Of a DNA stretch of 64,000 bases, positions 12,040-17,532 are shown piece by piece. The stretch comes from Melioribacteraceae bacterium (GTDB lineage: Bacteria; Bacteroidota; Ignavibacteria; Ignavibacteriales; Melioribacteraceae), in assembly GCA_027030245.1 (NCBI GenBank), contig JALVFE010000032.1, positions 1 to 64,000 on the forward strand, in the 5' to 3' direction. Under the pieces are notes generated by a model that was given only the letters and a program-made list of their open reading frames with translations, did no database searches and was not told where the DNA came from. The number at the start of each line of letters is the position of its first letter. Position 1 is the stretch's first letter. The translations under genes were made by a program, and so were the position numbers.

Positions 12040-12401
12040 AATAAACCTTGAGATTAGTGAGTAATATTTTCAAACAATTAACGAAAATTAAAAATAATTA
12101 GTTAAATAGCCTAAAAGAATTTTTCCCAATACACTCACAAATTGTTTTTTGCATAGTTGATAAATTGATAGTTGGAATAAAAAAATACCTATAAATAAGT
12201 TTGTAAGTCTAATTTAAATTAAGTCAATAGTATAGGCTTGTTATAGAAAATATCATAAAAGTTAATTATAATTTTGATGATTATTGACTATTGATATTTA
12301 AAGTATAATCAGTTATATTTTAAAAGTAATTAATCTCCTATCACCAAAAATGGGATGGTGATAATTAATCAATTAATTGTTAAATTTAATTAGGAGGAAT
12401 T
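12040..12401 (+). promoter_or_regulatory. AT-rich upstream region of the phase-variable lipoprotein
   Basis: 362 bases between the divergent sucC and lipoprotein starts, with no gene. It is very AT-rich. A hairpin (TATCACC at 12339-12345 with GGTGATA at 12357-12363) lies in the probable 5' leader about 40 nt before the start, and the ribosome site AGGAGG is at 12392-12397. I could not pick a single promoter with confidence. Confidence 0.45.
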
Positions 12402-13647
12402 ATGAAAAAAATAAAAATTTCCCCCCCCCCCCCCAATTTTTACATTTATAATTAGTCTCATTATTGCACTCTTTTATTTCCAGAGTTGTCAAAACACCAC
12501 GGCACCGCTTATTAATAATGAAAATGCCGAAGCACTTGAAAAAGCCGGAGAAATTAATCTTATTGAATTAGATATGATTGCCAAAAGTCTTGCTAAGACC
12601 CTTAAAAAAAACGCACTTAGAAAAATATTACGATCGGAAACCCAAAAAGCTGATACAAGGGAACATATACTTGATGCTAAGACGTTTCTCGAGAAAAATT
12701 TTAGTTATAACGGTAAATTTTATAATTTTAAAAAAGAAATGTTAACAATTGCTGCCTCAAATGAAAGAGATATTCTAAACAAAGCGTTGAAAAAATTGAA
12801 CAAGGGTAAAGTAGATATTTATTTCCCGGTTGATAAGCATTTTGAGAAATGGGATCCAAATGATCAGAAAATTAAAGTTGGTTATGTTAACCCGTTTAAA
12901 GAATTTGATCCGGTAAACGTATATGATATTGATGGGAATCATTATCTTTTAAGTTCTAAAGCGCCTCCTGAAGAAGCTGTATTAATGGTTAACTATTGTG
13001 AACATCATGGAAATCATGAAATAACTCCCCAGAGAAGAGAAGACGATCCTGGTGACGGCGATGGCGGAGGTGGTGGCTCCGGCGGTGGTGGATCTGGCGG
13101 AACAAACGACCGAAGAATTTATTTTGAATGGATATCGTTTAATGATTGGTCTGACTATGAACCCTGGACGAGTGGAGACCCGGAATTTAAAATGTTTTTT
13201 GCTATTACGAATAAAAGTACTTATAAATTAACATATACTTTTGGAGATGAATATGGTTATTGGACATGGTATGGAGCTTATAAAAGATATATAGCTACTG
13301 ATGGATGGAATCATAAAAGTCAATATTTTGTAACAATTAAATCTTCAAATACAGATAATGAAGAATATTCTTATGGTTCCGTAAAATTAATTGAGGAAGA
13401 TAAAGATATCGGGGAGGTTTCATTTAATTTAGAAATACCTTTGACCGCATTTATAGATGGGGCAAAAGCTACCTGGACTGTCAAATTTTCTGAATTAGAC
13501 GATGATGTTGGAGAAAATACATTTATAAAACTTTGGAAATCTCCATATTTTAGAGGATATAATGAAAGAAATACAGCACCATTATATAAAACTGAATGTT
13601 CTGTTGCAGGGGGAAGTTATTTGGTTTTTTGGTGGGACCATAGTTAA
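12402..13647 (+). CDS. Surface lipoprotein, frame broken by a 14-cytosine run (phase-off?)
   Basis: An ATG at 12402 with a strong AGGAGG site starts Met-Lys-Lys-Ile-Lys-Ile-Ser, then meets 14 C at 12421-12434. As written the frame stops at TAG 12453-12455. If the run had 13 C (or 16) the frame would join the long downstream frame, giving with 13 C a 414-residue protein: signal helix IFTFIISLIIALFYFQ then SCQNT, a lipoprotein-type cleavage site, an alpha/beta middle part, an acidic-to-glycine/serine linker (about residues 210-230) and a C-terminal beta-rich domain with many aromatics. I do not recognise the family. The rest of the frame (12436-13644) is intact, as expected of an expressed gene, and a terminator follows. 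Sequencing error in the run is the main alternative. Confidence 0.75.
12421..12434 (+). repeat. Poly(C) tract, 14 nt, inside the lipoprotein signal region
   Basis: Fourteen consecutive cytosines at codons 7-11 of an otherwise very AT-rich reading frame. Slippage by one C changes the reading frame, so the tract can switch the gene on and off, as poly(C)/poly(G) runs do in known phase-variable surface genes. Confidence 0.9.
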
Positions 13648-13658
13648 TAGTTTCGAGA

Positions 13659-13684
13659 AGGGCGTTTATAAGAACGCCCTGTTT
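13659..13684 (+). terminator. Terminator after the phase-variable lipoprotein
   Basis: Perfect 8-bp stem AGGGCGTT (13659-13666) / AACGCCCT (13673-13680), loop TATAAG, followed by GTTTT. Confidence 0.85.
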
Positions 13685-13711: not shown

Positions 13712-14560
13712 ATGGTTATTAGATTACTAATAATTTTAGAAGTAATTCTAAATTTACAATTATTGGCTCAAGACCAAGAATATAATTGGGTCGACGATAT
13801 TAAGCTAGTTGTGATTCCTAAAATCGGTTATACAATTTCAACAGCTTATCTGGAAGATTTACAAAGTAAATTTATTACATTAGCCGGTAGTAAATTTTTG
13901 AACAGGGATAAATTTGAATTAAACAATAGAGTCCCCATTACCCCATTATCAGATGGTTCTATTTCCGTTGGTTTGAAATACAACAATTATAATATTTATC
14001 TTGATTATCTAATCTCATTTAATAATTTACGGGATAATGCGTACGATTCACCTTATTATTCGGCTAACGGAGAAGAAATAGGAAGCTCAAAATTTATTTA
14101 CAGGTTATTTGAGATTAAAGGTATCTACTATTTTTTAGAAAATGTAGGATTGGGTTTAAAATACCAGACGTTATCAAAAGAGATTGACGTTGTGAATATA
14201 TTGGATAATACAAACGGTTTGCTTATGCAAAATATTGCATCGGCGCATTGGGATAATAAATTACTATTTTTAGTCTTACCCGTTAATTACCCGTTCTACG
14301 GTTTCGGTTCGTCATTTTCCATCGGCTTTTCGGTTCTCTCATCCGGCGAAAATTATTCGTTGATAAATGATTCCGATACGCAATTTAAGAAAGATTATAA
14401 CCCGCCGTTCGTTTTATTTATTAACGCCGGAATAAGTAAAATAATATTTAACTCATTGGAGTTGGGGGTAAAATATAAATTCAATTATGAAACTTCTAAG
14501 GGGAATTATTCATTACTTTCAAATTCAATTTTCATTAGTTTGGGCATACCCGAATTATAA
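13712..14560 (+). CDS. Outer-membrane beta-barrel-like protein (unrecognised family)
   Basis: 282 residues: a signal peptide (MVIRLLIILEVILNLQLLAQ), then alternating aromatic/hydrophobic strands such as VVIPKIGYTIS, ISVGLKYNNYNIYLDYLISF and LGLKYQTLS, and a final strand ending in SIFISLGIPEL, compatible with a small barrel. It sits 30 bp before a TonB-dependent receptor gene, so a receptor partner or accessory porin is a fair inference. No known domain was recognised. The AT-rich composition matches the neighbours. Confidence 0.6.
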   Translation: MVIRLLIILEVILNLQLLAQDQEYNWVDDIKLVVIPKIGYTISTAYLEDLQSKFITLAGSKFLNRDKFELNNRVPITPLSDGSISVGLKYNNYNIYLDYLISFNNLRDNAYDSPYYSANGEEIGSSKFIYRLFEIKGIYYFLENVGLGLKYQTLSKEIDVVNILDNTNGLLMQNIASAHWDNKLLFLVLPVNYPFYGFGSSFSIGFSVLSSGENYSLINDSDTQFKKDYNPPFVLFINAGISKIIFNSLELGVKYKFNYETSKGNYSLLSNSIFISLGIPEL

Positions 14561-14599
14561 TATATTTAATAATCCGTCATTTGTGCTTTTATGTATTTA

Positions 14600-16837
14600 A
14601 TGGATAAATTAACAATATATTTAATTTTGTTAATCATTCTTTCCCCTTCAAACCATTATTCCCAGCATTATTCAGTGTTAAAAGGGAATTTAGTAGATTC
14701 GTTAACAAATCAACCCGTTTATAATGCCAGTATATTAGCTGATGAAATTCAAAGGGGAACCACAAGCAATGAAAGAGGCAATTTTATATTAAAAGTTCCG
14801 GAAAATATCGAAGTTATTACTTTAAAAATATATCACATCTACTATGAAACCAAAACAGTTAAAATTTATCTACATAAACTAAATAAAAAAAATTTTGTTA
14901 TTAAACTGAGGCAAGGTGTTATACCTTTAGGTGCTGTTGTTGTTAAAGGTGAGAAAACCAATGAAAGCGCCGGATATTTAATATCTGGTAAAACAATTAA
15001 TAATTTGCCCGCATTAGCCGAGCCCGATATTATCAGAGCAGTCTCGTTTTTGCCCGGTGTATCGCAGTTCAGTGATTACAATCCTTCTTTACATATAAGA
15101 GGCGGATTTATAGATCAAAATGCAATTGTTTACGACGGAATTGAATTATTCAATCCTTATTATCTGTTGGGTGTATTTAGTTCAATAAATACAAAGACTA
15201 TAGATAAAACTAATATTTGGACTGCGAATTACCCACCGGAACATGCCGGTAGATTAAGCGGCATTATATCATTGAGCAGTATCGATCGGGAATCCAAGCC
15301 TTTTGTGAACTTAAATTTAAGCTTAATAAGTGCAAACTTTACCATTGCAAAGAAATACGGAAACACCTTTCTTTTATTTGGCGTAAAACGTTCTTATTTG
15401 GATTTGATTATGGCTCTTTTAGGTAAAAGAAACTTTGATTTTAAGTTATACAATATAAACTTTAAGGTATCCCATCAATTTTCCGGAGATATTGAGACTG
15501 ATATAATTGCTTTCGAAAATAATGAGATAAGTAATGATCCCAATCTTGAAAATGAAAATTCCCCCAATAATAAAATATACCGTGGTAACAAAGCCATAGG
15601 TATTAAGCAGAGATTTAAAAATCACAGTATTCTCTTTTCATTTTGCCGTAATTTCAACGAATACAGTAATAAAAATTACTACTACAAAAATATAATTGAC
15701 GATTTTGGTGTTAAGTATAAATACGAATTCGATATTAATTATTTAAAACAAAGAATCGGTTTTAATTTCCGGAACATAAATGTATTGAATAATTGGGACT
15801 TGGATAATGATTTTAAAGATTCATTTTTTGGTAAGAATATACCTTTTACCTATGCAAAACGAGCAGGAGTAAATATATACCAGCCTTGGTTGGAAAATGA
15901 AATTTTAGCTCTTAACAAACTAAAGATTAAAATTAAAAATTTGACTATGATTACGAATTTAAGTAATTCGATTTATTTATTTCCCGGATTTACTTTGGAA
16001 TACTATCCTTCACCCGTTTATAAATTTTCTATTAATGCAGAAAAGAATTATCAATTATTAACAACCGGAATATTCGAGGAAGAAAACTATAATCTGATTA
16101 ACAAACCTTATTTTATTATAGCAAAACCATTACAAGCATATATTTTAGGTGTCGGTAACGATTTTAATTTTGGTAATAATTATTATTTGTCGGTAAACGC
16201 TTATTATAAAATTATAACGAAAACACTGAAATTATTGGAGAACAATAAATACCCGGAATTTTCAACAGGCTCAGGAAAATCATACGGTGTTGAAATTATG
16301 TTCGAGAAATTAACAGGTATATTGACTTACCAATTGAACTACACATATCAAAAAACATTTTATTCTTTTAAAAATGAAACCTATCAACCCAAATGGAGTT
16401 TCCCACATTTTATAAAGGGTATTATGGGAATAGAGCTCGGTAAAACATGGAAGTTTAATTTATCTTTTTCTTTCCATAGTGGAGCTTTGTATAATAGAAT
16501 TTTAGGATATTATAAATCCATTGGTCTATTTGCAGGAGAAGATTCGGACAAATACGATGTTGTTCGTCTTTCGGACCACATCATTTTTGACGACAAAAAA
16601 ACTAGATATAAGCCTTATTGGCGGTTGGATGTTTCGTTCAGAAAAAAATATAAAGGAAAATATTTTGATTGGATTTTATATATACAAGTTCAAAATATAA
16701 CTTTTAATGATAATCCGGTGGAAATATATTCCGATAAATTCGCTTTAGATATTATTAAGTATGGCAAACCGCAAGATTCTGGTTATTTATCCGGGTTGCC
16801 AATCATTCCTTCTGTGGGTGCGGAATTTATCTTTTAG
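14600..16837 (+). CDS. TonB-dependent outer-membrane receptor with carboxypeptidase-regulatory-like N-domain
   Basis: About 745 residues from the ATG at 14600 (an ATG at 14591 is also possible; neither has a strong ribosome site). Signal peptide, then a CarboxypepD_reg-like domain (VLKGNLVDSLTNQPVYNASI, about 28-110), a plug domain with LPALAEPDIIRAVSFLPG, HIRGGFIDQNAIVYDGIELFN split across 160-185, and a long barrel ending EFIF, with the terminal aromatic typical of barrels. It imports a substrate across the outer membrane with energy from TonB; the substrate is unknown. The DUF4249 gene begins 5 bp after its stop, so they are one operon. Confidence 0.9.
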   Translation: MDKLTIYLILLIILSPSNHYSQHYSVLKGNLVDSLTNQPVYNASILADEIQRGTTSNERGNFILKVPENIEVITLKIYHIYYETKTVKIYLHKLNKKNFVIKLRQGVIPLGAVVVKGEKTNESAGYLISGKTINNLPALAEPDIIRAVSFLPGVSQFSDYNPSLHIRGGFIDQNAIVYDGIELFNPYYLLGVFSSINTKTIDKTNIWTANYPPEHAGRLSGIISLSSIDRESKPFVNLNLSLISANFTIAKKYGNTFLLFGVKRSYLDLIMALLGKRNFDFKLYNINFKVSHQFSGDIETDIIAFENNEISNDPNLENENSPNNKIYRGNKAIGIKQRFKNHSILFSFCRNFNEYSNKNYYYKNIIDDFGVKYKYEFDINYLKQRIGFNFRNINVLNNWDLDNDFKDSFFGKNIPFTYAKRAGVNIYQPWLENEILALNKLKIKIKNLTMITNLSNSIYLFPGFTLEYYPSPVYKFSINAEKNYQLLTTGIFEEENYNLINKPYFIIAKPLQAYILGVGNDFNFGNNYYLSVNAYYKIITKTLKLLENNKYPEFSTGSGKSYGVEIMFEKLTGILTYQLNYTYQKTFYSFKNETYQPKWSFPHFIKGIMGIELGKTWKFNLSFSFHSGALYNRILGYYKSIGLFAGEDSDKYDVVRLSDHIIFDDKKTRYKPYWRLDVSFRKKYKGKYFDWILYIQVQNITFNDNPVEIYSDKFALDIIKYGKPQDSGYLSGLPIIPSVGAEFIF

Positions 16838-16842
16838 GTTTA

Positions 16843-17532
16843 ATGATGAAAAATATTTTACTTTTATTAATCCTTCTATTACTAACAAGTTGTGTTGATT
16901 CTCCTGTCGAATTAAATAAGCTGGAGCATGATTTAGCGCTTACTTTTGTTATTCGATCAAATAATAACAGGCAGAAAGCATTGGTAACTTATGTTAATTC
17001 ACCGGGTGACAAGTATTCCAATTTCCCCAAACTTGTTAACGACTGCGAATTTTATGTAAACGGCATTAAATTTAATATAAATGATAGTATCGATTACTCG
17101 AGATTTCATAATATCGGATATTTTTATAATTATTATTCGGATAGTTTAAAAACTAAAGATATAGATACGTTTCATTTAAGAGTTGTTAAAGGAAATAATA
17201 TTATTGTTGGGAAAACAATTATGCCGGGAGAATTTAATATTATTGTTTCCGGAAGGACGATTAAATGGTCAAAAAGTTCACGAGCATATTATTATTCTAT
17301 TAAAATTGAAAATACATCTAATAATTTTATTTATAAAGAAACTACAGACGGCTTATTCTATACAATTGCTAATACGGATTTTATTCCCGGGAAATATACA
17401 ATAGAAATCTGTGCTTTTGACAAAAATTATTTTGATTATTATAATAATCAAAAAGATCCTTCGGGAATTAGTGGTGCATACGGAATTTTCGGCAGTGTGA
17501 GATGTGAAAAAATAGTTGCAAATATTAAGTGA
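16843..17532 (+). CDS. DUF4249-type surface lipoprotein
   Basis: 229 residues. Lipoprotein signal MMKNILLLLILLLLTSC with cysteine at the cleavage site, then the D-SPVELNKLEHDLALTFVI opening and the ending GAYGIFGSVRCEKIVAN, which resembles DUF4249 proteins (usually somewhat longer). These are encoded next to TonB receptors in Bacteroidota-type genomes and probably work with the receptor at the cell surface. Directly follows the receptor gene. Confidence 0.7.
   Translation: MMKNILLLLILLLLTSCVDSPVELNKLEHDLALTFVIRSNNNRQKALVTYVNSPGDKYSNFPKLVNDCEFYVNGIKFNINDSIDYSRFHNIGYFYNYYSDSLKTKDIDTFHLRVVKGNNIIVGKTIMPGEFNIIVSGRTIKWSKSSRAYYYSIKIENTSNNFIYKETTDGLFYTIANTDFIPGKYTIEICAFDKNYFDYYNNQKDPSGISGAYGIFGSVRCEKIVANIK

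Follow-up and report, generated by a model that had tools for sequence, protein, structure and literature searches.

Does the long cytosine run at the start of a predicted lipoprotein gene in Melioribacteraceae bacterium switch that gene on and off? The gene lies in a 64,000-nucleotide stretch of contig JALVFE010000032.1 (genome G000), here called the window, to which all coordinates refer unless another contig is named. A preliminary description, made from the letters alone, had proposed that the run is a phase switch in this one gene and that the gene is in the OFF state. From sequence comparisons, we put at about 0.83 the probability that the gene is a phase-variable (contingency) locus, in which tract slippage would turn translation ON and OFF, and that it is one of about 19 such genes in Ignavibacteriales.

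Reading frames around the poly-C tract

The elements at the 5′ end of the gene, and the hairpin that follows it, are as follows.

12392–12397, forward strand: Shine-Dalgarno-like AGGAGG, 4 nucleotides upstream of the ATG
12402–12455, forward strand: present (OFF) reading, with ATG, 17 codons and TAG, from in silico translation
12412–12414, forward strand: TAA in the long frame, 5′ of the tract, read from the sequence
12421–12434, forward strand: poly-C tract, 14 C in the sequence; predicted ON lengths 10, 13 and 16
12436–13647, forward strand: long frame of 403 amino acids plus stop, with a predicted signal peptide h-region, lipobox cysteine and mature lipoprotein, from translation and homolog alignment
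13659–13680, forward strand: terminator-like hairpin, 3′ of the lipoprotein gene, between genes 1 and 2 of the operon

The run contains exactly 14 C, with T 12420 on its 5′ side and AATTTTTAC on its 3′ side, and begins 19 nucleotides downstream of the first base of the ATG at 12402. Translation with 14 C gives MKKIKISPPPPNFYIYN, followed by the stop. At this tract length the long frame lacks its own start, because it contains the TAA at 12412–12414 and no ATG, GTG or TTG before the predicted lipobox cysteine; its first in-frame ATG, at 12574, would yield a leaderless product of 357 amino acids. The ATG at 12402 and the long frame are fused only at 13 C (or at 10 or 16), giving 414 residues, and in silico a change of one unit in the tract toggles between the full-length and the stunted product. 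An open frame as long as the 403 codons at 12436–13644 has a probability of approximately 1e-13 in random DNA of the same composition. The preliminary description had placed the run correctly, base for base, and its two translations, a stop after 17 codons with 14 C and an intact 414-residue frame with 13 C, were both reproduced; the good ribosome site and the terminator that it mentioned correspond to the AGGAGG and the hairpin listed above.

The tract is exceptional in its surroundings. No other C run in the window exceeds 6, and nowhere else do C or G runs reach 10 in the 3.81-Mb genome, where a first-order model predicts 0.007 runs of 14. In 100 dinucleotide shuffles of the window, C8 matches were always fewer than observed.

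Tracts in homologs and in other exported-protein genes

The lipoprotein gene is the first of a four-gene operon containing a TonB-dependent receptor gene, a context that the preliminary description had recognised and that is conserved. In the uncultured Ignavibacteriales RB_MAG_00003 (G042), which belongs to the same family and another genus, the four genes are syntenic and in the same order, with protein identities of 35, 29, 44 and 44%; the 35% identity of the lipoprotein extends over its full length. The G042 contig (C119) ends within a run of at least 18 C, at the position matching the 14 C of the window. The place of the tract is therefore conserved across genera, and the assembly of the ortholog broke on it. 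The homologs of G114 and G110, which belong to another family of the order, have an ordinary start, with neither a tract nor prolines at this place.

Within the genus, which includes Bacterium BMS3Abin04 (G001), all four members of the lipoprotein family carry a C run of 7–14 at this site, and all four are out of frame. The paralog on contig C22 of the window genome has 9 C and would be in frame at 10; the syntenic ortholog of this paralog in G001, with 7 C, would be in frame at 8; and the third family member, in G001, also has 7 C. The absence of in-frame members in the genus is what would be seen if a single expansion had killed the gene and left a decaying pseudogene, and the C22 paralog, besides being out of frame, is cut near its 3′ end by an insertion sequence (IS)-like element also present on contig C36. 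Such an origin is nevertheless very unlikely for the window gene, which keeps 403 open codons, full-length identity to its ortholog and a conserved operon, and whose tract is retained in the ortholog and in the paralogs.

Many long C tracts were also found at the starts of other exported-protein genes in this genus, and the layout extends beyond it. About 19 genes in eight genera of Ignavibacteriales share a single arrangement, in which an ATG is followed by 3–12 codons (mostly 3–6), a C tract, a signal peptide and an exported protein. The window gene is a member of a set and not a single case. Outside the lipoprotein family the layout was found in G000 (C16 and C21), G001 (C45 and C48), G002 (C76 and C305), G059 (C282, C417 and C302), G088, G065, G013, G064 and G144, the last belonging to another family of the order and having 14 C and a frame of 427 codons. 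Tract lengths across the set range from 7 to at least 18 C, and homologs with tracts of 7–8 C supply additional members. Among the predicted products are M43 and S8 proteases, an M36-like protein, proteins sorted by the type IX secretion system (T9SS), other lipoproteins and exported proteins without assignment. The T9SS sorting domain PF18962/TIGR04183 was matched over the cut-off in G002 C76, G059 C417 and G088 C138, and below it in G002 C305 and G059 C282; the last of these is a subtilase (S8) with a 12-C tract.

Eighteen tracts could be read on both sides. Seven are in frame, close to the one third predicted by random slippage, and 11 are out of frame, 5 needing one C fewer and 6 one C more; the out-of-frame copies retain long open frames. 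These figures bear on three other explanations. The run might be ordinary coding sequence for a proline stretch needed in the n-region of the signal peptide, and the in-frame members do all have PP or PPP there. As most copies are out of frame, this role is rejected and we regard it as improbable in the extreme; moreover, the tracts use CCC exclusively, although CCC accounts for 27% of proline codons here (with PPP occurring once in 15,109 residues), and the G114 and G110 homologs do without prolines at this site.

Slippage of the ribosome (+1 at CCC-C, sensitive to m1G37 and EF-P) or of RNA polymerase during expression could instead provide some full-length protein from every allele. Close to a start codon, runs of proline CCC codons are known to cause +1 shifts in the absence of tRNA m1G37, and a +1 ribosomal shift is precisely what the window allele requires. 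Uniformity would be expected of a programmed site, but the shifts needed across the set run in both directions and seven copies need none; programmed ribosomal frameshifting is rejected on this ground, and we assign expression-level slippage as a whole a low probability. A sequencing or assembly artefact, with a true tract of 13 C or another in-frame length and a gene that is stably on, is also unlikely, if somewhat less so. Homopolymers 14 long are error-prone and the genome is a draft of 40 contigs, but the tract itself would remain after such a correction. Independent assemblies by different groups have long C runs at the same codons and out of frame, several of them only 8–10 long, a length that short reads usually resolve, and the contig of the ortholog breaks within its tract.

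The association of tracts with this layout was also examined in a strand-controlled survey of C or G runs of at least 9, listed for the 79 genomes of the family; all those outside genome G083 were used (n = 107). In either orientation, each run was checked for an ATG upstream, a long frame and a hydrophobic segment, with or without a ribosome site, using criteria that were set after the first examples had been seen and were identical for both strands. With the ribosome site required, 11 runs passed in the C orientation and 1 in the G orientation (sign test, P = 0.003). Genome G083 was left out of the survey; its 30 C runs of at least 9 are clustered on a few foreign-looking contigs, and those inspected lacked the signal-peptide layout. 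G or C runs of 7 near a CAT showed little excess over a backward control, and the claim therefore rests on the longer tracts and on homologs. Runs of A or T of 19 to 35 occur at or near contig ends in the window genome (C25, 248704–248773; C35, 11–35; C9, 129896–129914); its poly-T runs, which may be assembly ends or real tracts, were set aside on account of this position.

Near-identical pairs within one genome are the closest available stand-in for a comparison of strains. Three such pairs were found, in G000 (C16 and C21; 9 and 8 C; 86% DNA identity over 363 bp), in G001 (C45 and C48; 10 and 8 C; 90% over 358 bp) and in G002 (C76 and C305; 10 and 8 C; upstream DNA 92% identical over 677 bp). 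Tract length thus differs between related copies, and every pair combines a copy that is in frame at the tract with one that is not; for the window gene the comparison is with a distant ortholog only (14 versus at least 18 C). In the G002 pair, both T9SS genes, the shared DNA spans −669 to +7 of the tract and is followed by unrelated proteins, so leaders may move by copying from one gene to another. A pair with a common leader and divergence after it is also present in G000 and in G001, and the C tract plus ATGTCCGATTAAAAAAA is common to two genera. Tentatively, some of these bacteria could possess a transferable phase-variation leader. It would comprise a promoter, a ribosome site, a start codon and the poly-C unit, and copies of it would be placed ahead of exported genes that are not related to one another, joined at the tract; we consider this possible but doubtful.

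The C16 gene of G000 (reverse strand, from about 6120 of C16:237000–247000) is in frame at its 9 C but is disrupted at an A6 run some 105 codons further on, past which approximately 600 codons carry on in another frame. This break may be a second switch, decay or an assembly error.

Slippage as a proposed switch of export

Slippage switching is favoured over the other explanations because the tract is kept in place, its length varies, and the frames are random with long open reading downstream. In the proposed mechanism, slipped-strand mispairing during replication would add or remove single C residues, reversibly. At 13 C (or 10 or 16) the ribosome would pass from the ATG through four prolines and the signal peptide into the 414-residue lipoprotein, presumably of the outer membrane, encoded by the first gene of the TonB-receptor operon. 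At the present 14 C it would stop after 17 codons, and nothing would be exported. Across the set, a tract near the start would in the same way gate the export of one surface or secreted protein per gene. The advantage might be that some cells escape phage or predators, or that they hedge their bets on interactions with nutrients or matrix. The OFF state and the phase switch proposed in the preliminary description are supported by the tract at the same site in the ortholog from another genus and in the paralogs, and by the recurrence of the layout with mixed frames.

Several points weigh against this interpretation. Its support comes from assembled copies of genes and not from length variation among reads or strains, and the length of 14 C, taken from a draft assembly, could be wrong by one base. 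Tracts of 7–8 C may slip slowly. The mutS1 gene was found over the family cut-off in four of the five genomes checked; mononucleotide slippage would therefore be damped, and rates may be modest. Without the ribosome-site requirement the strand contrast in the survey is weaker (12 versus 5, P = 0.07). Finally, some members of the set may be decaying, as the IS-cut C22 paralog illustrates.

The mechanism itself is already known, and as far as the open literature shows the new elements here would be the lineage and the cargo. Campylobacter jejuni NCTC11168, which is AT-rich, is given in PMC4965091 as having 29 loci with G/C tracts of at least 7 and reversible ON/OFF switching. Long G/C tracts within reading frames of an AT-rich genome are common to both cases; unlike in C. 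jejuni, there are only a handful per genome here, all directly after the start codon and ahead of a signal peptide. In Bacteroides, phase variation of SusC/SusD is controlled by invertases (reference 61 of PMC11868660). The resemblance lies in the phase variation of TonB-receptor outer-membrane proteins in a Bacteroidota lineage, but the Bacteroides switch is a site-specific DNA inversion and the one proposed here a homopolymer tract. The G059 subtilase recalls the phase-variable autotransporter proteases NalP and AusI/MspA of Neisseria meningitidis, with homology compared at the level of the S8 family. The Neisseria proteins belong to the type V autotransporters and come from a mucosal commensal and pathogen, whereas the set described here consists of lipoproteins and T9SS cargo from uncultured, environmental members of the Ignavibacteriales.

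Homopolymer phase variation has been studied almost solely in host-associated pathogens and commensals, and a review from 2025 points to a knowledge gap for ocean and soil bacteria (PMC11868660). Searches of the open-access literature found neither phase variation described in Ignavibacteria nor T9SS cargo switched by a homopolymer, which is not proof of novelty. If the proposed mechanism is correct, conserved switches on lipoproteins and T9SS proteases would mean that surfaces are switched at random outside animal hosts as well. Many such genes will be annotated by pipelines as truncated or absent, and their tracts can break assemblies.

The predicted lipoprotein and its neighbourhood

The remaining features of the lipoprotein and of the operon are as follows.

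12487–12489, forward strand: predicted lipid-attachment cysteine (FQSC), invariant across homologs
13051–13101, forward strand: Gly/Ser-rich linker joining the N-terminal and C-terminal domains
13712–14560, forward strand: gene 2, 282 amino acids, probable outer-membrane barrel, 29% identical to the syntenic G042 gene
14591–16837, forward strand: TonB-dependent receptor with CarboxypepD_reg-like domain, 748 amino acids, 44% identical to the syntenic G042 gene
16843–17532, forward strand: gene 4, small and lipoprotein-like, 229 amino acids, 44% identical to the syntenic G042 gene

A hydrophobic segment and the invariant cysteine were present in all seven homologs; the −3/−2 residues, FQ, differ from the classical [LVI][ASTVI]. 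The N-terminal domain, of about 180 residues, is common to all homologs, and the C-terminal domain matches the G042 ortholog over its full length. The linker is a natural Gly-rich, (GGGGS)-like sequence, and the C-terminal domain beyond it varies among homologs.

The lipoprotein matched no Pfam or NCBIfam family, and it gave no match to the C-terminal T9SS sorting domain PF18962/TIGR04183. A sequence search of the PDB returned no relative (E above 0.06). Structure prediction with AlphaFold gave a weak model, with a mean predicted local distance difference test (pLDDT) score of 55, which is good only in the N-terminal domain, at about residues 41–130; it had no meaningful match among PDB structures. 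A scan of 85,000 genomes with the single sequence returned no relatives of the lipoprotein, and relatives were retrieved once an alignment of seven homologs served as the query.

The homolog in G059 (C301) has no C tract and carries a run of 21 T about 42 bp upstream of its ATG, the sole T run of at least 16 in that genome. As a guess, this run could be a promoter or promoter-spacing switch.

The IS-like sequence that cuts the C22 paralog is a 125-bp end shared by the end of C22 and the start of C36 in G000, which we take to resemble the 3′ end of an IS3-family transposase gene. On C36 it also cuts a gene adjoining a DNA-methyltransferase-like gene.
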